Positions 16,268-23,865 of a DNA stretch of 64,000 nt are shown here, piece after piece. The DNA lies in contig NZ_FOIB01000005.1 in NCBI RefSeq assembly GCF_900111765.1, positions 124,001 to 188,000 of the forward strand, in the 5' to 3' direction. The translations under genes and the position numbers were made by a program. The notes below the pieces were generated by a model, which saw nothing but the letters and a program-made list of their open reading frames with translations, had not been told where the DNA came from and made no database searches. Numbering within the stretch: the stretch's first letter is position 1; every line of letters starts with the position of its first letter. This DNA comes from Myxococcus fulvus (GTDB lineage Bacteria > Myxococcota > Myxococcia > Myxococcales > Myxococcaceae).

Positions 16268-17356
16268 TCAGGCGCCGCGCTGGCGGGCCACCGCGCGCTT
16301 CACCGTCTCGCGAAGTCCGACGAAGGGAAGGCGCTCAAGGGCGGTGGGCACGTCCACCCATTCGAAGGTGTCGTGCTCGGGGCCCAGGCGGACCTCCGTA
16401 TCGGGAGGGGCCTGGATCGCGAAGCCATTCTCCCGCGCGAGCACGGGGGGCAGCGTCTCGCCGATGGCGAAGGCGTGCTGGTAGTGGAGGTCCTCGGGAG
16501 CGAGGCGCAGTCCGGTCTCCTCCTCGAGCTCTCGGGCGGCGGCCTGGGCGGGTGATTCACCGGGCTCCACGCGGCCCGTGAGGATCTGCCAGAAGCCTCC
16601 GCGCTCGGGGCGGCGGCGCACGAGCAGGACGCGGGCCTCGGGGCCGTGTCCGCGCACCACGGCGACGCTGACGGTGGACATGGGCGGCGGCGCATCGACG
16701 CGCTCGCTGTCGAACACGGCGCAGAAGCTGCGCGCGAGGGCCTCTTCCACGTCGGGCACGGGGATGGCGTTGCCACGCTCGCGCTGCATGGACGTGACGC
16801 CGGCCTCGCGGATGCCGCACGGGACGATGAAGCGGAAGTGCTCCATCTTCGTGTTCACGTTGAGCGCGAAGCCGTGCGTGGTGAGCCAGCGGGAGATGTG
16901 GACACCGATGGCGGCGATCTTCCGCGCGTCCGGGGCGCCCTCCTCGCCAATCCACACGCCGGGCCACTTGGGGATGGGACCGGCGGTGATGCCCCACTCG
17001 GACAGCACCTGCATGATGGAGCGCTCCACGTCGCGCACGTAGCGACGGACGTCACGACGCGACTCGGGGAGCAGGAAGATGGGGTAGCCGACGATCTGCC
17101 CGGGGCCGTGGTAGGTGACGTCGCCGCCGCGGTTGGTCTCGAAGACCTGTACGCCCTCGGCGGAGAGGCTCGCGTCGGAGGCGGTGATGTTCTCGCGCTT
17201 CGCGCCTCGGCCCAGGGTCAGCACGGGCGGGTGCTCCAGGAGGAGCAGTGCGTCGGAGCAGAGCCCCTCGCGACGCGCGTCGCCGAAGAGGCGCATGAGC
17301 TTGAGGCCGTCCTCGTACTCCACCCGGCCGAGCCGGTAGACGGTGATGGTGTTCAC
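16268..17356 (-). CDS. lipB: Octanoyltransferase LipB fused to a Nudix hydrolase
   Basis: 362 residues. Residues ~1-220 are LipB, which moves octanoyl from acyl carrier protein to lipoyl domains: RGGDVTYHGPGQIVGYPI, catalytic lysine in RKIAAIGVHI and catalytic cysteine in PCGIREAGVTS. Residues ~225-362 are a Nudix domain with the box GRVEPGESPAQAAARELEEE plus TGL (GX5EX7REUXEEXGU intact). LipB alone is normally 200-230 residues, so this is a genuine fusion with no stop between. The Nudix substrate is unknown. The GTG start at 17356 overlaps the upstream stop (GTGA), implying translational coupling to the ClpX-finger/AAA+ gene. Its product should serve the E2 protein encoded just upstream. Confidence 0.93.
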   Translation of the reverse strand: MNTITVYRLGRVEYEDGLKLMRLFGDARREGLCSDALLLLEHPPVLTLGRGAKRENITASDASLSAEGVQVFETNRGGDVTYHGPGQIVGYPIFLLPESRRDVRRYVRDVERSIMQVLSEWGITAGPIPKWPGVWIGEEGAPDARKIAAIGVHISRWLTTHGFALNVNTKMEHFRFIVPCGIREAGVTSMQRERGNAIPVPDVEEALARSFCAVFDSERVDAPPPMSTVSVAVVRGHGPEARVLLVRRRPERGGFWQILTGRVEPGESPAQAAARELEEETGLRLAPEDLHYQHAFAIGETLPPVLARENGFAIQAPPDTEVRLGPEHDTFEWVDVPTALERLPFVGLRETVKRAVARQRGA

Positions 17357-19692
17357 GACGTTCCCTTCTTGCGCCGCCCCTTGCGAGCAGGGGCTGGCTT
17401 CGTGACTTTGTCGAGGTCCCAGGTGCCTGGGGGGATGCGCTGGAGGAGCGCCTGGAGTTCATGGCCCGCGCGCGGGGAACGCGCGGCTTCCGCCACGAGC
17501 ACGGACAGGGCCGTCTCGGACAACGTCGTCGCGGGCTCACGCGCGGCGAGGTGGGCTCGAGCCAGGTCCCTGTATTCGGCGGGAGTGGGCTGACGCAGGG
17601 CCACGAGGCGCTGGACGTGCTCCAGGATGCCGACGGTGAGGGTGCCGCGCACGGCACGAGACAGTGAGTCCGTGGTGGGGACGTTGAGGCGGACACCATC
17701 TCCACGCAGCGCGAGCTTGCTCGACGTGGGTGCCTTGCCCCTCGCGCTGAGTACCACCGTGGGTCTCGCTGCCTGGCCCAGGAAGGCGCTGAGCGTGAGC
17801 TGGTGTTCGGTGCTCAGCCGGTCGACGTCCTCGATGAACAGCGGTGTGGAGGATGGAGCCTCCGCGAGCGCGTCGACCGTGGTGAGCGCGCCCTGCCCTT
17901 CTCGCCGGAGCATCCGGAGCAAGGTGCTCTTCCCACAGCCCTCCGCACCGATGAGCAGCACACAACGGACGCCTGTGCGGAGTGCATCGATCAGCGCGCG
18001 TCGCGACTCCGATTGGCCGATGAAGTCCGGTGCGCTCGGAGTCGGTGTCTCGACGCGAGGACGGACCGGGAGCGACACCGGGCTCACGGCGTCACCGAAC
18101 AGGGATGCGGAGGCCGTGAGGCACGACTTGCAAATGAACGCCCCCGCCGGTCCCGCGACGAGCTCGCCAATCTCAGCGCGAGGGCGGCAGCAGAACGAGC
18201 ACCACGCGTCCAGCGTCGCGTCCGCGCGGGTGGGGCCACGCTCGATGATGCGCGGCTTGCGTCGACGCAGGGGCGGCGTGTCCTCCGCTTCGTGAGGCGC
18301 GCGCGCGGCCACGTCGTCACCGCCTTCGAGTTCGTCAGACGGCTCTCGCCGCGGCGCTCCGAACAAACGGGTTCCCGTCATACCCAAGAGGTGGAGTTGG
18401 CTCTCCTCGGCGCTCGCGGACTCACTCGGGTCCCCGAGAAGCCAGGTCTCATCCTCGACCTCGGATGCACCTTCTGCCCCCTCCGCGCCCGACGGCTCAT
18501 CGGATCCGGTCACGATACCCGCCGGGCCATCCCACTCATCGAGCAGCCCTGGACTCCAGGACGCATCGTCGGAGCCACCGCCACCCGTGAATCGCTCGCC
18601 GCCGAAGCTTCGTGCTCGGCTTCGCGCACCTGCGCTCCGGGCCATGAATCGGAAGTCTGGCGACGCTCCGGCGGTCACGCTCGGCGCCTCGCCACGCGTC
18701 ACACAAGAACTCGCGCTGTCGTCAGCGTCCAGTTCCCAGTCCCACGGCGATGGTCCGGCCCCATCCCTTTCGGTCTCCGCTCGCGAGGCTCGCGACACCC
18801 TGGCTGTCACGCTCGACGCCTCGCCACGTGTCGAGCCAGAGCTCGCGCTGTCGTCAGCGTCCAGTTCCCAGTCCCACGGCGATGGTCCCGCCCCATCCCT
18901 TTCGGTCTCCACTCGCGAGGCTCGCGACACTCCGGCTGTCACGCTCGACGCCTCGCCACGTGTCCAGCCAGAGCTCGCGCTGTCCGCCCCGACCATGCTC
19001 CGGGCTCGCGACGCGGGTCCAGCATGCTCGGGAAATGCCCTTCCCCTGTCGTCGTCCGCTGGTGCGCGAGGCGAAGCTCCGGCTGTCACGCGCGCCGCCT
19101 CGCCTCGCGTCACGCCAGCGCTTACGCTGTCGTTCGCATCGAGGGTCCAGCCCTGTCGAGGCGACCCGGTCCCTTCCGAAGAGGCCGCTCCACTTTCGCC
19201 CTTCGGAGCGAGCGCATCAGCTCGCGGCCCCTCGACTGCGAACGAGTCGCCTCCTCGCGACAGCTCGGCCTCCAGGCGCTGAAGATCTTCACTCACCTCC
19301 GAGTCCAGTTCCCAGGCGGTGACTTCGACATGCGCATCCGCGGACCGAGGCTCTGCCTCCTCACGCAGCGCGGCTTCGATGAGTCGCTGCCTCAGCGCCA
19401 GCTCCGACGACGAGACACCCTCCTCGCCTCCCGCCATCAAGGTCGCCGGGCGAGCAGTCTCGTCAGCGTCCGGCGCCGACATCCGCTCGAGCCGCGCCAC
19501 CTCATCGGCGATATCCGCACGGCACTCATCCAGCCGGCACGCATGGCGCAGCAACTGGAGCGCCCGAGGTGCGTTCCCCGCGCGCTGGAAGAGCGTCGCG
19601 GCCTGGAACAACAGCTCCACCGCACGAGGCGCGTCACCGCTCAGCTCGGCGGACTGCGCGGCGCGGATCAGCTCGCGAGGGTTCTCGGCCAT
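17353..19692 (-). CDS. TPR / ClpX-type zinc finger / AAA+ ATPase protein
   Basis: 779 residues from ATG 19692. Residues 1-75 form a TPR-like helical segment. A long acidic, low-complexity middle (~80-480) contains tandem 44-residue repeats built around SPWDWELDADDS. At ~495-525 is a ClpX-type C4 zinc finger (CSFC, then 19 residues with LVAGPAGAF, then CKSC). The C-terminal ~220 residues are an AAA+ domain: Walker A GAEGCGKST (~580), Walker B PLFIEDVD. It is not ClpX itself: the order, the repeats and the missing pore loops argue for a substrate- or partner-specific ATPase. It is coupled by a GTGA overlap to lipB and lies 142 bp after the E2 gene, so a role in lipoylated-complex handling is possible but unproven. 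Confidence 0.75.
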   Translation of the reverse strand: MAENPRELIRAAQSAELSGDAPRAVELLFQAATLFQRAGNAPRALQLLRHACRLDECRADIADEVARLERMSAPDADETARPATLMAGGEEGVSSSELALRQRLIEAALREEAEPRSADAHVEVTAWELDSEVSEDLQRLEAELSRGGDSFAVEGPRADALAPKGESGAASSEGTGSPRQGWTLDANDSVSAGVTRGEAARVTAGASPRAPADDDRGRAFPEHAGPASRARSMVGADSASSGWTRGEASSVTAGVSRASRVETERDGAGPSPWDWELDADDSASSGSTRGEASSVTARVSRASRAETERDGAGPSPWDWELDADDSASSCVTRGEAPSVTAGASPDFRFMARSAGARSRARSFGGERFTGGGGSDDASWSPGLLDEWDGPAGIVTGSDEPSGAEGAEGASEVEDETWLLGDPSESASAEESQLHLLGMTGTRLFGAPRREPSDELEGGDDVAARAPHEAEDTPPLRRRKPRIIERGPTRADATLDAWCSFCCRPRAEIGELVAGPAGAFICKSCLTASASLFGDAVSPVSLPVRPRVETPTPSAPDFIGQSESRRALIDALRTGVRCVLLIGAEGCGKSTLLRMLRREGQGALTTVDALAEAPSSTPLFIEDVDRLSTEHQLTLSAFLGQAARPTVVLSARGKAPTSSKLALRGDGVRLNVPTTDSLSRAVRGTLTVGILEHVQRLVALRQPTPAEYRDLARAHLAAREPATTLSETALSVLVAEAARSPRAGHELQALLQRIPPGTWDLDKVTKPAPARKGRRKKGTS
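18674..19160. repeat. 132-bp in-frame tandem repeat
   Basis: Copies begin at 18674, 18806 and 18938 (exact 132-bp period) with a degraded fourth at 19084. A 30-40 bp core is nearly identical in copies 1-3. The period is 44 codons, so the protein keeps frame. It lies in the acidic linker of the ClpX-finger/AAA+ protein. Confidence 0.85.
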
Positions 19693-19834: not shown

Positions 19835-21094
19835 TCAGGTCATCGCCAGGAACAGCATGTCCGGCTTCTCGAGGTACTTGATGACTTCGTACACGAAGTC
19901 CGCGGCCACCGAGCCGTCGATGACGCGGTGGTCGCACGACAGCGACAGGTTCATCATGTCGCGGACCACGACCTGGTCCTTCACCACCGCCGGGCGCTTC
20001 TTGAGCTTGTGCACGCCCATGATGCCCACCTCGGGGTGGTTGATGATGGGCGTGGCGAACAGGCCGCCCGTCTGCCCCAGCGAGGTGATGGTGAAGGTGC
20101 CGCCCGTCAGCTCCTCCATCTTCAGCTTGCGCTCACGCGCCGCCACACCCAGCCGCGACGTCTCACGCGCCAGCTCGGCCAGCGTCAGCCGGTCCGCGTC
20201 CTTCACCACCGCCACCGTCAGGCCATCCGGCGTCGCCACCGCCATGCCGATGTTGTACTCGCCGCGCACCACCAACTCCTGCGCCGCCTCGTCGAAGTTG
20301 GCGTTCAGGTGCGGGAAGCGCTTCAGCGCGGCGATGGTCGCCTTGATGATGAACGGCAGGTAGTTGATCTTCGTGTTGTCGCCCACCGCCGCCAACTGCG
20401 CGTTGAGCCGGGCACGCAGCGCCACCAGCTCCGTCGCGTCCACTTCCTCCACGAAGGCGAAGTGCGGCATCGTGAACTTCGAGCGCACCATCTTCTCGGC
20501 GATCTTCTTGCGCAGCCCCCGCAGCGGCACGCGCTCGTCCGACCGACCCGTCGACACGGAGGGCGCCGCGGGACGCGCCTGGGCCGGCGCCGCCACCACC
20601 ACGTTCTTCTGCTCGCCGCCACCCTCCAGCGCCGCCACCACGTCCGCCTTCGTCACCCGCCCCTGCGGGCCACTGCCGGAGATGGTCGTCAAATCCAGCC
20701 CGTGCTCACGCGCCATCCGACGCGTCACCGGCGTGGCCAGCACCTTCGTCGCCTGCGCGGGAGCCGCCGCGGCGGCAGCGGCCTGAGCGGGAGCCGCCGC
20801 CTGCGCGGCCGGAGCGGGAGCCCCGTGGCCCGCGGCCTGGACCGGCGCGGCGCCTTCGATCTCCATCGTCACCAGCGGGTGGTGCACCTTCGCGATGTCG
20901 CCTTCCTTGCCGTGCGTCTGGATGACGCGACCGGCCTTCGGGCTGGGGACGGTGACGGTGGCCTTGTCCGTCATCACCTCGGCGAGCACCTGGTCTTCCT
21001 TGACGACGTCGCCGGCCTTGACGTGCCACTTGACCAGCTCGCCCTCCATCACGCCTTCACCGAGGTCGGGGAGCTTGAATTCGAAGGTTGCCAT
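19835..21094 (-). CDS. Dihydrolipoamide acyltransferase (E2) of a 2-oxoacid dehydrogenase
   Basis: 419 residues. One N-terminal lipoyl domain (residues ~2-77) with the lipoylated lysine in VMTDKATVTV, an Ala/Pro hinge, a peripheral-subunit-binding domain (~125-160, TRRMAREHGLDL...GRVTKADV), another hinge, and the catalytic domain with SCDHRVIDGS (His/Asp active site). The single lipoyl domain and the VMTDKATV form point to a branched-chain-type or hybrid E2 rather than the three-lipoyl PdhB of enterobacteria. E1 genes are not in the window. Start at ATG 21094; ATG 21130 is less likely. 54 bp follow lipA. It uses LpdA as E3 and is lipoylated by LipB/LipA. Confidence 0.93.
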   Translation of the reverse strand: MATFEFKLPDLGEGVMEGELVKWHVKAGDVVKEDQVLAEVMTDKATVTVPSPKAGRVIQTHGKEGDIAKVHHPLVTMEIEGAAPVQAAGHGAPAPAAQAAAPAQAAAAAAAPAQATKVLATPVTRRMAREHGLDLTTISGSGPQGRVTKADVVAALEGGGEQKNVVVAAPAQARPAAPSVSTGRSDERVPLRGLRKKIAEKMVRSKFTMPHFAFVEEVDATELVALRARLNAQLAAVGDNTKINYLPFIIKATIAALKRFPHLNANFDEAAQELVVRGEYNIGMAVATPDGLTVAVVKDADRLTLAELARETSRLGVAARERKLKMEELTGGTFTITSLGQTGGLFATPIINHPEVGIMGVHKLKKRPAVVKDQVVVRDMMNLSLSCDHRVIDGSVAADFVYEVIKYLEKPDMLFLAMT

Positions 21095-21148
21095 GGGGTG
21101 TCTTTCCGAGAGGAACGGGGGTTGCGTCAAGGCTCGAATCGGGCCCGC

Positions 21149-22078
21149 TCAGCCGAGCCGCTCCAGGCGCTCGCGCTCCATCAGGCCCTTCATGAAGAAC
21201 TCGGCGGCGCGATAGCTGGAACGAACCAGCGGACCCGAGGCCACGTAGAGGAAACCGTAGGACTCGGCCAGCTTCTTGTACGACTCGAACTGCGCCGGAG
21301 TGACGAAGCGCTCCACGCGCAGGTGGTACTGCGAGGGCTGCAGGTACTGTCCCAGCGTGAGCACGTCCACGCCCACGTTGCGCAGATCCTTGAAGGTCTG
21401 CTCCAGCTCGGCGTCCGTCTCGCCCAGGCCCACCATGACCGACGTCTTGGTGTAGATGCCCTCGGGACGGTGCTTCAGGTACTCGAGCACGCGCAGCGAC
21501 TGGGCGTACTTCGCGCGGCGGTCTCTCACCGTCGGCGTCAGCCGCTCCACCGTCTCCACGTTGTGCGCGACGACGTGCGGCCGGGCCTCGGCCACCGTGG
21601 CCAGGTCCTTCTCCACGCCCTTGAAGTCGGGGATGAGCACCTCGACGATGGTGCGCGGGCTCTCGCGGCGCAGCTCGCGAATCGCGGAGGCGAAGTGGCT
21701 GGCGCCACCGTCGGGCCGGTCATCCCGGTTCACCGACGTGACGACGATGTACTCCAGGTCCATCTCCTTGACGGCCTGGGCCAGGTGGATGGGCTCCATC
21801 GGATCCAACGGCGGCGGAGCGCCCACCTTCACGTGGCAGAAGCGGCACGCGCGCGTGCAGACCTCGCCCATCAGCATCACCGTGGCCGTGCCACCGCCCC
21901 AGCACTCGGCGATGTTCGGGCAGCGGGCCTCCTCGCAGACGGTGGCCAGCTTCGTGCGCTTCACGATGGCCTTGACCCGCTCGTACCCCTCGCCGTGAGG
22001 CAAGCGCACCTTCAGCCAGTCCGGCTTGCGGGTCGTCTCTGTCACCTGGGGGAGAGGGAACCGGTCAGGAGTCGCCAT
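21149..22078 (-). CDS. lipA: Lipoyl synthase
   Basis: 309 residues. Radical-SAM enzyme inserting two sulfurs into octanoyl-lysine on E2 and GcvH. Seen are the auxiliary-cluster motif VCEEARCPNIAEC, the radical-SAM CTRACRFC, and the C-terminal RSSY that ligates the auxiliary cluster. Length is usual for the family. ATG 22078 lies about 12 nt below a sigma-70-like promoter (22090-22118), with a perfect dyad at 22130-22146 just above. Together with E2, LpdA and LipB it makes this a lipoate-dependent dehydrogenase locus. Confidence 0.97.
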   Translation of the reverse strand: MATPDRFPLPQVTETTRKPDWLKVRLPHGEGYERVKAIVKRTKLATVCEEARCPNIAECWGGGTATVMLMGEVCTRACRFCHVKVGAPPPLDPMEPIHLAQAVKEMDLEYIVVTSVNRDDRPDGGASHFASAIRELRRESPRTIVEVLIPDFKGVEKDLATVAEARPHVVAHNVETVERLTPTVRDRRAKYAQSLRVLEYLKHRPEGIYTKTSVMVGLGETDAELEQTFKDLRNVGVDVLTLGQYLQPSQYHLRVERFVTPAQFESYKKLAESYGFLYVASGPLVRSSYRAAEFFMKGLMERERLERLG

Positions 22079-22386: not shown

Positions 22387-23784
22387 CTAGAAGTGGCGCG
22401 GGTGACCCAGCGTGGCCTCGGCGCCCTCGTGGACGATCTCCGAGAGCGTCGGGTGGGCGTGGATGGTGCCCGCCAGCTCCTCGGTGGTGATCTCCAGCTT
22501 CAGCGCGACGCAGGCCTCGGCCAAGAGCTCCGTGGCGTGCGGACCGATGATGTGGATGCCCAGCACCTCGTCGTACTTCTTGTCGGAGACGATCTTGATG
22601 AGGCCCGTGGACTCGTTGGTGATGGCGGACTTCGTCACCGCGCCGAACGGGGCGTTGCCGATCTTGACGTCGTAGCCGCGCTCCTTGGCCTTCTTCTCCG
22701 TCAGGCCCACCGAGGCGACCTCGGGGTAGCAGTACGTGGCGGACGGGGTGAGGTCGTAGTTGATGGGCTGCGGGTTCTTCCCCGCGATGTGCTCCACCGC
22801 GACCACGCACTCGGAGCTCGCCATGTGGGCCAGCATCGGGGTGGGGATGACGTCGCCCACGGCGTAGACGTTGGGCTCGCTGGTGCGCAGCATCGAGTCG
22901 ACCTTGATGTAGCCGCGGTCGGTCTTGATGGACGTCTTGTCCAGGCCCACGTCGTCCGTCACCGGCGAGCGACCCACGGCCGACAGGAGGATCTCCGCCT
23001 CCAGCGTCTTGGTCTCGTTGCCGACCTTCATGGTGACGCGCACGCCGTCCGCCGTGTGCTCCACCTTCTCCACCGCGGAGCCCGTGTGCACGTCGATGCC
23101 GCGGCGGCGGAAGATCTTCTCCAGCTCCTTGGAGATGTCCGCGTCCTCGATGGGCAGGAGCGCCGGCAGGTACTCCACGATGGCCGTCTTGCTGCCCACG
23201 TGGTTGAAGATGGACGCGAACTCACAGCCGACCGCGCCCGCGCCCAGGACGATGATGCTCTTGGGGATGCGCTCGATCTGCAGGATGGAGTCGCTGTTGA
23301 GCACGCGCTTGTGGTCCACCGGCACGTTCGGCAGGGACTTGGGGACCGAGCCCGTCGCGATGATGACGTTCTTGGCGTCCAGCACCTGCTTGGTGCCGTC
23401 GGCGGCGGTGACCTCCACCTTGCCCTTGCCCGCGATGCGGCCGTGGCCCTTGATGACCGTCACCTTGTTCTTCTTCATCAAGAAGTCGATGCCGTTGGCA
23501 CCCTTGGTGACGACCTTGTCCTTGTGCTTCATCGCGTTCGGCCAGTTGACCGTCGGGCTCGACAGGTCGATGCCGAAGTCCCCGGCCTCCTTGACGTGGT
23601 GGAACAGCTCCGCCGTCCACAGCAGGGACTTGGTGGGGATGCACCCGCGGTGGAGGCACGTGCCACCCAGACGCTTGTCCTTCTCGATGATGGCCGTCTT
23701 CAGCCCGAGTTGCCCCGCGCGGATGGCGCCCACGTAGCCGCCAGGGCCCGAACCGATGATCACCACGTCGAACGTCTCAGCCAC
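22387..23784 (-). CDS. lpdA: Dihydrolipoyl dehydrogenase (E3)
   Basis: 465 residues. FAD enzyme reoxidising dihydrolipoamide on E2/GcvH with NAD. N-terminal FAD loop GSGPGGYVGAI, redox disulfide GGTCLHRGCIPTKS, NAD-binding GAGAVGCEFASIF, and catalytic His-Glu in HAHPTLSEIVHEG. Start chosen at GTG 23784 because GGAGG lies 5 nt upstream; the ATG at 23799 has no ribosome binding site and adds five residues. It is transcribed first in the lipoate cluster but is 308 bp from lipA, which seems to have its own promoter. Confidence 0.96.
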   Translation of the reverse strand: MAETFDVVIIGSGPGGYVGAIRAGQLGLKTAIIEKDKRLGGTCLHRGCIPTKSLLWTAELFHHVKEAGDFGIDLSSPTVNWPNAMKHKDKVVTKGANGIDFLMKKNKVTVIKGHGRIAGKGKVEVTAADGTKQVLDAKNVIIATGSVPKSLPNVPVDHKRVLNSDSILQIERIPKSIIVLGAGAVGCEFASIFNHVGSKTAIVEYLPALLPIEDADISKELEKIFRRRGIDVHTGSAVEKVEHTADGVRVTMKVGNETKTLEAEILLSAVGRSPVTDDVGLDKTSIKTDRGYIKVDSMLRTSEPNVYAVGDVIPTPMLAHMASSECVVAVEHIAGKNPQPINYDLTPSATYCYPEVASVGLTEKKAKERGYDVKIGNAPFGAVTKSAITNESTGLIKIVSDKKYDEVLGIHIIGPHATELLAEACVALKLEITTEELAGTIHAHPTLSEIVHEGAEATLGHPRHF

Positions 23785-23865
23785 GCACGCCTCCGTCATT
23801 ATTTGCGGATGGAACCCGGTGGGGCTGATAACCCCCGCTCCCGGTTGGAATCAAGGAGATTGCTC

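Follow-up and report, generated by a model that had tools for sequence, protein, structure and literature searches.

A ClpX-finger protein encoded directly ahead of lipB in Myxococcus fulvus and its relatives: parts, linkage and possible role in lipoylation

The DNA analysed here (the window) is a stretch of 64,000 nucleotides from Myxococcus fulvus, with a GC content of about 70% in a host genome of 10.8 Mb, and this text is concerned with a gene in it, named Q here, that is located immediately upstream of lipB, the gene of the octanoyltransferase LipB. Q encodes a protein in which a TPR-like head and a long acidic linker precede a ClpX-type zinc finger and an AAA+ part. The near-constant pairing of Q and lipB among the relatives of this organism suggests that the protein serves specifically to assist the attachment of lipoic acid to enzymes of central metabolism.

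The protein Q and its operon

The gene and the parts of its product are the following:

17353 to 19692, minus strand: gene Q, 779 residues, with TPR-like head, acidic linker, ClpX-type C4 zinc finger and AAA+ part
19477 to 19692, minus strand: TPR-like helical head, residues 1 to 72 (from alignment A2 of 18 homologues and the model of homologue L108)
18247 to 19476, minus strand: net-acidic linker, residues 73 to 482, 410 residues (charge count)
18660 to 18984, no strand assigned: 132-bp tandem repeat, 2.5 copies, within the linker
18109 to 18246, minus strand: RGPxxADxxLxAW motif followed by the ClpX-type C4 finger (Pfam and invariant columns)
17407 to 18036, minus strand: predicted compact AAA+ domain, residues 553 to 762 approximately (model confidence 89.4, see below, and fold matches)
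17356 to 17400, minus strand: basic C-terminal tail (ARKGRRKKGTS)

The open reading frame (ORF) opens with a methionine codon. The presence of a ClpX-type C4 finger, proposed in a preliminary description made from the letters of the window, is confirmed by the Pfam domain search, which recognises zf-C4_ClpX on residues 497–528 (E 3.3e-9, 36.9 bits against a cut-off of 27); the finger cysteines are Cys 498, 501, 521 and 524, with an additional Cys 502, and the four, which are putative zinc ligands, also occur in 39 finger ORFs of relatives. As for the TPR segment of that description, the helical nature of the head is upheld and its family is not, since an AlphaFold2 model of the 375-residue homologue L108 shows three confident helices in the head region, while the TPR_12 match of Q stays below the Pfam cut-off (16.6 against 30.1 bits). 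Columns of the head invariant in the 18 homologues are R, AQ, AE, A, L, A and R. The L108 model as a whole (mean predicted local distance difference test score, pLDDT, 80.9) places the finger and the AAA+ part behind these helices and a linker of low confidence.

The description also held that the linker was an acidic repeat of about 400 residues, of which the length (410 residues) and the net acidity stand; the repeat is just a local 132-bp array. In the window the linker contains 19% D+E and 10% K+R (net charge –37), and its charge is negative in all 32 homologues that could be measured out of 39 loci, the remaining seven having been dropped because their start was not found by the script. 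Linker length in the 32 ranges from 37 to 410 residues; the repeat is regarded as local because the window linker is the longest of all, and it was rejected as a functional element. Most of the linker of L108 has a pLDDT below 50, and that of Q is probably disordered too, to judge from this model. At the other end of the protein, the final 15 residues include at least five K or R in 39 of the 66 distinct homologues counted.

Downstream and upstream of Q, on the same strand, lie genes for the synthesis and use of protein-bound lipoate:

16268 to 17356, minus strand: LipB octanoyltransferase fused to a C-terminal NUDIX domain
19835 to 21130, minus strand: 2-oxoacid dehydrogenase E2
21149 to 22078, minus strand: lipoyl synthase LipA (TIGR00510, above cut-off)
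22387 to 23799, minus strand: dihydrolipoyl dehydrogenase E3 (TIGR01350, above cut-off)

The order is thus E3-lipA-E2-Q-lipB/Nudix. The E2 is left unassigned to type because the equivalog models of the pyruvate (PDH) and 2-oxoglutarate (OGDH) dehydrogenase components both score below their cut-offs. The stop codon of Q (TGA) and the start codon of lipB (GTG) share bases as GTGA, which bears out the coupling given in the preliminary description, and this overlap suggests that Q and LipB are probably made together. A scan for promoters and terminators gave nothing above chance. E1 genes, present in this operon in other families, are undetected between 19692 and 24600 (minus strand), as in most Myxococcus loci, and the only E1a-like matches in the own genome, at 25–30% identity, are located outside the window.

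Linkage of Q to lipB and history of the operon

A search with the window protein in the own genome and 60 relatives matched 43 of 61, among them all 37 members of its family. For the survey of the whole order, 145 genomes were searched with a profile built on the head-to-finger region (A2), and 99 of them matched, namely 94 of the 96 in the family of the window (two, G135 and G136, through the head alone), three in two further families (G037, G038 and G057) and, weakly, G072 and G083. The two genomes of the family without a match are G096, which is 79% complete, and G137, of 2.1 Mb, neither of which gave a lipB match. These two weak matches, like those in G184–G186 (all with E of about 1e-9 to 1e-8), may be ClpX. 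In the named collection, where relatives of Q occur in Myxococcus, Corallococcus, Archangium and other Myxococcales, a scan with two peptide patterns taken from the finger motifs gave 48 loci (L080–L127), among which no homologue clearly outside the Myxococcales was found, all record titles being myxobacterial except two. One, ‘Deltaproteobacteria bacterium’ (L121), is genome G057, within the order of the window. The other, L093, is titled Comamonas sp. KCTC 72670 and bears the Q operon; this record is probably mislabelled and from the genus of the window.

The tie to lipB is the most regular feature of these loci, lipB following Q in the same direction in 46 of the 48. The spacing, for which lipB starts were taken as the starts of tblastn alignments, is a 4-nucleotide overlap in 28 of the 46 and at most 12 nucleotides in 43, and the other three range from 104 to 675 nucleotides. 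The link to the lipoate genes claimed beforehand is strongly supported by these counts, and the frequent separation from lipB that would have spoken against it was not seen, conserved linkage being found in 46 of 48 loci. The two exceptions are of different kinds. The first, L125, runs into a contig end, and in its genome (G038) Q follows lipA, lipB being in the middle of another contig. The second, L121, is a contig of 4.2 kb on which no lip gene is seen, and it belongs to the 86% complete genome G057, which gave no lipB match; its Q (L070:2549–3205, minus strand) is a head-finger protein in which a different C-terminus replaces the AAA+ part. In seven loci (L107, L108, L113, L114, L126, L127 and L148), tblastn finds no lipA, E1, E2 or E3 in at least 5 kb upstream, and lipB is still adjacent to Q at 0 to about 125 nucleotides, which argues that the tie of Q is to LipB first.

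The operon itself is probably older than its association with Q. In other families of the order, 17 lipB neighbourhoods were collected (L158–L174), of which only L159 comes from a genome with a Q match, and in none of them does Q precede lipB. Three of them (L158, L160 and L163) read E3-lipA-E1b-E2-E1a-lipB-nudix, and among the rest, some have E1a or E3 ahead of lipB, in an order that varies, and in four only lipB-nudix is seen. Several Q loci (e.g., L111, L115–L117 and L123) read lipA-E1b-E2-E1a-Q-lipB-nudix, and most Myxococcus loci E3-lipA-E2-Q-lipB-nudix, with E1 genes retained in L039/L083 and L047. Since operons without Q occur in other families, three of them with E1a directly followed by lipB, Q was probably inserted into an older operon between these two genes, as far as gene order can tell; a loss of Q in the other families is a possible alternative history. 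A nudix match follows lipB in 16 of the 17 neighbourhoods (all but L164), so that the pairing of LipB and NUDIX is probably older than Q.

The AAA+ part: nature, constraint and losses

AlphaFold2 models the C-terminal 297 residues of Q with a mean pLDDT of 89.4, and an AAA+ fold is predicted with confidence for this part. In VIA-align, ClpX ranks first (3hte_E, Z 14.8, rmsd 4.0, 198 residues aligned), with ClpA (14.4) and Hsp104 (14.0) tied with it and RFC at 13.8; the first row in Foldseek is RuvB (1in4, E 6.3e-8). The preliminary description had spoken of an AAA+ domain different from that of ClpX, of which the AAA+ assignment stands by fold and the difference is not established, ClpX being the closest neighbour but tied. 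A profile of finger and AAA+ part together matches ClpX collinearly (8e91, E 4.1e-15) over the finger and the P-loop, a second stretch in the lid region being weak and not significant, and it also matches structures of the ClpX zinc-binding domain (1ovx, E 3.6e-7; 2ds5, E 9.8e-7). A profile of the AAA part alone yields P-loop matches from many families in the PDB and does not single out ClpX. It is possible that finger and AAA+ part descended jointly from a degraded ClpX.

Family assignments by sequence were all rejected; every AAA-type Pfam match to whole Q is below its cut-off (AAA_16, 22.5 against 32.6 bits). AAA_16 matches 36 of 37 AAA segments (best E 5.9e-8), and the segment of the window reaches 25.1 of the 32.6 bits; Mg_chelatase passes with the AAA segment alone (22.2 against 20.3), over just 40 residues of the P-loop, and fails with the whole protein (17.3); the sigma-54 activator domain remains below cut-off in the window protein (Sigma54_activ_2, 17.7 against 25 bits), with weak matches in 15 of 37 AAA segments (E up to 0.1, best 1.8e-4).

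Q is also not a second ClpX. It scores 21.6 bits against the NCBIfam ClpX model, whose cut-off is 359, and ClpX identity was ruled out by four motifs, as neither a pore-1 GYVG, an LGF/IGF loop for docking on ClpP, a DE Walker B nor a GARxLR sensor 2 was found in window Q, in which Walker A reads GAEGCGKS (P-loop G582 to K588) and Walker B LFIED, that is, ED and not DE. The same motifs were counted in alignment A4, which comprises the window protein and 39 of the 43 AAA+-bearing named loci (L101, L118, L119 and L122 being left out), and among these 40 C-termini the pore-1 motif and the ClpP loop each occur in one, the DE and the GAR sensor 2 in none; Walker A in 40 of 40 is there by selection. 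The two true ClpX genes of the own genome, which carry all four motifs, served as positive control. The absence of the pore and ClpP-loop motifs indicates that Q is not a threading unfoldase of the ClpX type, and to judge from these motifs it should not thread substrates into ClpP. The two ClpX genes are L075 (contig C7), which is without the RKH motif, and L076 (C11). Two further proteins of the own genome carry a ClpX-type finger, a protein of 84 residues encoded directly behind a DnaK-like gene, as judged by eye (L078:1411–1665, minus strand, C4), perhaps a stand-alone ClpX finger beside a chaperone, and one of 179 residues with the finger at its C-terminus and no P-loop (L077:1096–1635, plus strand, C14).

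How constant the parts of Q are depends on how the loci were collected. The 40 loci of relatives L031–L070 were chosen by whole-protein similarity, and a finger ORF is present in 39 of them, the one exception being truncated by the end of its contig; other loci were picked by finger motifs and their ORFs by CxxC..CxxC, so that the four cysteines in 69 of 69 versions are true by construction. As several genomes are represented twice (in L031–L070 and L080–L127), counts use distinct sequences, 69 for the P-loop and 66 for the basic tail, from which L150–L157 were left out. Outside the 69 are L148 and L149, which were found through the head and have no CSFCC motif, L069/L125 (contig end) and L072. 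The two alignments A2 and A3 contain 18 of the 47 ORFs from named loci, and A5 contains 37 of the 40 sequences of A4.

The P-loop is present in 64 of the 69 versions, and the remaining five (L123/L067, L121/L070, L120, L124/L152 and L150) are without P-loop and AAA+ part; L065/L119 has no Walker B. In L148 and L149, from genomes of 2.3–2.7 Mb, the gene before lipB encodes a TPR-like head and a short CxxC..CxxC segment. In four reduced versions of Q, too, the TPR match is below the Pfam cut-off. On a lipB tree, which was built quickly, has many weak branches and does not include G057, presence and absence of the AAA+ part require four changes. In seven close pairs, the ratio of non-synonymous to synonymous substitution rates (dN/dS) is 0.20–0.54 for the AAA+ part, 0.37–0.63 for the linker and 0.05–0.79 for the head; in five of the seven, constraint is strongest on the finger (0.00–0.10). 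These ratios, together with the losses, suggest that the AAA+ part is under selection where present, yet dispensable in several lineages.

Proposed role, alternatives and known systems

The head and the finger are the most constant parts of Q and are encoded in a gene that overlaps that of LipB, and Q is therefore most plausibly taken for a scaffold or adaptor that serves octanoyl transfer. In the reading that we prefer, though only tentatively and at somewhat less than even odds, Q would be dedicated to LipB and to LipB-dependent lipoylation, with head and finger as its core and the AAA+ part as an option. The head would hold LipB or its substrate; the finger would dimerise and dock partner peptides, as the zinc-binding domain of ClpX does; the acidic linker, probably disordered, would space the two ends; and LipB would in this way be gathered with octanoyl-ACP (acyl carrier protein) and apo-lipoyl domains, or its access to them controlled. 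Where present, the AAA+ part may use ATP for switching or for letting go of the partners that are bound. The available text of one source describes the zinc-binding domain of ClpX as a docking platform, with the human finger binding PDIP38 and preferring net-negative peptides (PMC7647994).

Several observations weigh against this scaffold role or against an optional AAA+ part. The link between Q and LipB is one of gene position, and families with the same LipB-Nudix do without Q. Q follows lipA in G038, with lipB on another contig, and in the 86% complete G057 it has no neighbouring lip gene and no lipB was matched. The short segment of L148 and L149 is unrecognised by Pfam as zf-C4_ClpX. In the other two close pairs the dN/dS of the finger, calculated over 45 codons only, is 0.25 and 0.98, and that of the head is 0.79 in the closest pair of the window itself. 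Finally, the starred branches of the lipB tree alone force just two changes of AAA+ state, and 64 of the 69 versions have retained the AAA+ part, which indicates that it is not trivial.

Next in probability, though doubtful, is that the finger of Q pairs with that of ClpX or captures adaptors or degrons, so that LipB or E2 would be protected from, or exposed to, ClpXP. The finger is recognised as ClpX-type, its profile matches the ClpX zinc-binding domains 1ovx and 2ds5, and the own genome encodes two true ClpX. An AGP stretch of the finger is nearly invariant, and we presume from an alignment that it is placed at the adaptor-docking loop. The basic tail seen in 39 of 66 homologues is, we take it, somewhat like the C-terminal signal of ClpX. 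In human mitochondria, the CLPX finger is a docking site for PDIP38/POLDIP2 (PMC7647994), and a review covers the control of PDH and OGDH lipoylation by POLDIP2 and CLPX (PMC9679015). POLDIP2 is reported to increase lipoylation in that it spares a lipoate-activating enzyme from CLPXP, and Q would have a similar effect. The finger of Q, however, has one extra residue between the cysteine pairs and an extra cysteine, which makes a pairing with the ClpX finger uncertain, and no bacterial precedent for control of lipoylation by ClpX was found in the open-licence PMC literature. The more elaborate form of this idea, in which Q, through a finger borrowed from ClpX and regardless of whether the stripped AAA+ part is there, competes with ClpX for docking and so sets the lifetime or activity of LipB, as an independently evolved bacterial counterpart of POLDIP2-CLPX, is distinctly improbable.

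It is unlikely that Q has an unrelated cellular job, for example as a regulatory scaffold, and is merely located in a conserved operon. Such a job would agree with the positional nature of the lipB link, with the lack of a lip gene beside Q in G057 and with the other ClpX-finger proteins of the own genome that are not ClpX (L077 and L078), but Q stays by lipB where E1, E2, E3 and lipA are out of reach and in reduced genomes, and even in G038, with lipB on another contig, Q comes after lipA, which is also a gene of lipoylation.

The preliminary description suggested that Q might target or remodel the 2-oxoacid dehydrogenase complex; this idea, taken as remodelling driven by ATP and extended to apo-lipoyl domains, is not favoured and has a small chance of being right. 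It would be consistent with the confident AAA+ fold and the widespread P-loop (64 of 69 homologues), with the presence of E2 and lipA beside Q in most loci with enough sequence, and with a precedent in which, according to the available text, mitochondrial ClpX partly unfolds ALA (aminolevulinate) synthase and promotes cofactor binding (PMC7077987), but a motor that is missing in 5 of 69 versions and in the further reduced L148 and L149, that in the window protein has ED in Walker B and in which the substrate-handling loops of ClpX are nearly absent among 40 sequences is both optional and stripped, and in the seven loci described above lipB accompanies Q although no E2 is found, all of which makes an E2-remodelling motor less likely.

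LipB is usually regarded as a self-sufficient housekeeping enzyme. A near-universal partner gene, probably inserted ahead of lipB and kept without the other genes of the operon, suggests that in these bacteria octanoyl transfer is assisted or controlled. In Q, moreover, the ClpX zinc finger would serve for docking outside a ClpX unfoldase, so that the function of the finger could be tested in a simple setting. No paper on a Q-like protein was found in the open-licence PMC literature; finger, AAA+ fold and operon are of known kinds, and their combination, the tie to LipB and the evolutionary behaviour were not found there.

Among known systems, the fold of the AAA+ part is comparable to those of RuvB, the Clp D2 and RFC-type AAA+ proteins, a clear family assignment by sequence being missing. 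In ClpX, as in Q, a C4 finger belonging to one and the same Pfam family precedes an AAA+ part; the profile of Q matches ClpX collinearly, and ClpX ranks first, though tied with others, among the structural neighbours. Unlike ClpX, Q has a TPR-like head, a long acidic linker and an AAA+ part of about 210 residues, which in the window is without pore-1, LGF/IGF loop, DE Walker B and GARxLR and in some relatives is absent. Mitochondrial ClpX and ALA synthase, as described in the available text of PMC7077987, are similar to Q and LipB in that a ClpX-finger AAA+ protein aids a cofactor-dependent enzyme, but mitochondrial ClpX is a full unfoldase and Q is without the ClpX loop motifs. In the POLDIP2/PDIP38-CLPX system of human mitochondria, a ClpX-type finger is likewise linked to the lipoylation of 2-oxoacid dehydrogenases, as far as the accessible parts of two sources go (PMC7647994; PMC9679015); there, POLDIP2 binds the finger and carries none, consisting of YccV-like and DUF525 domains in the text available (PMC7647994), whereas Q itself bears the finger beside LipB, and the likeness is one of analogy only.

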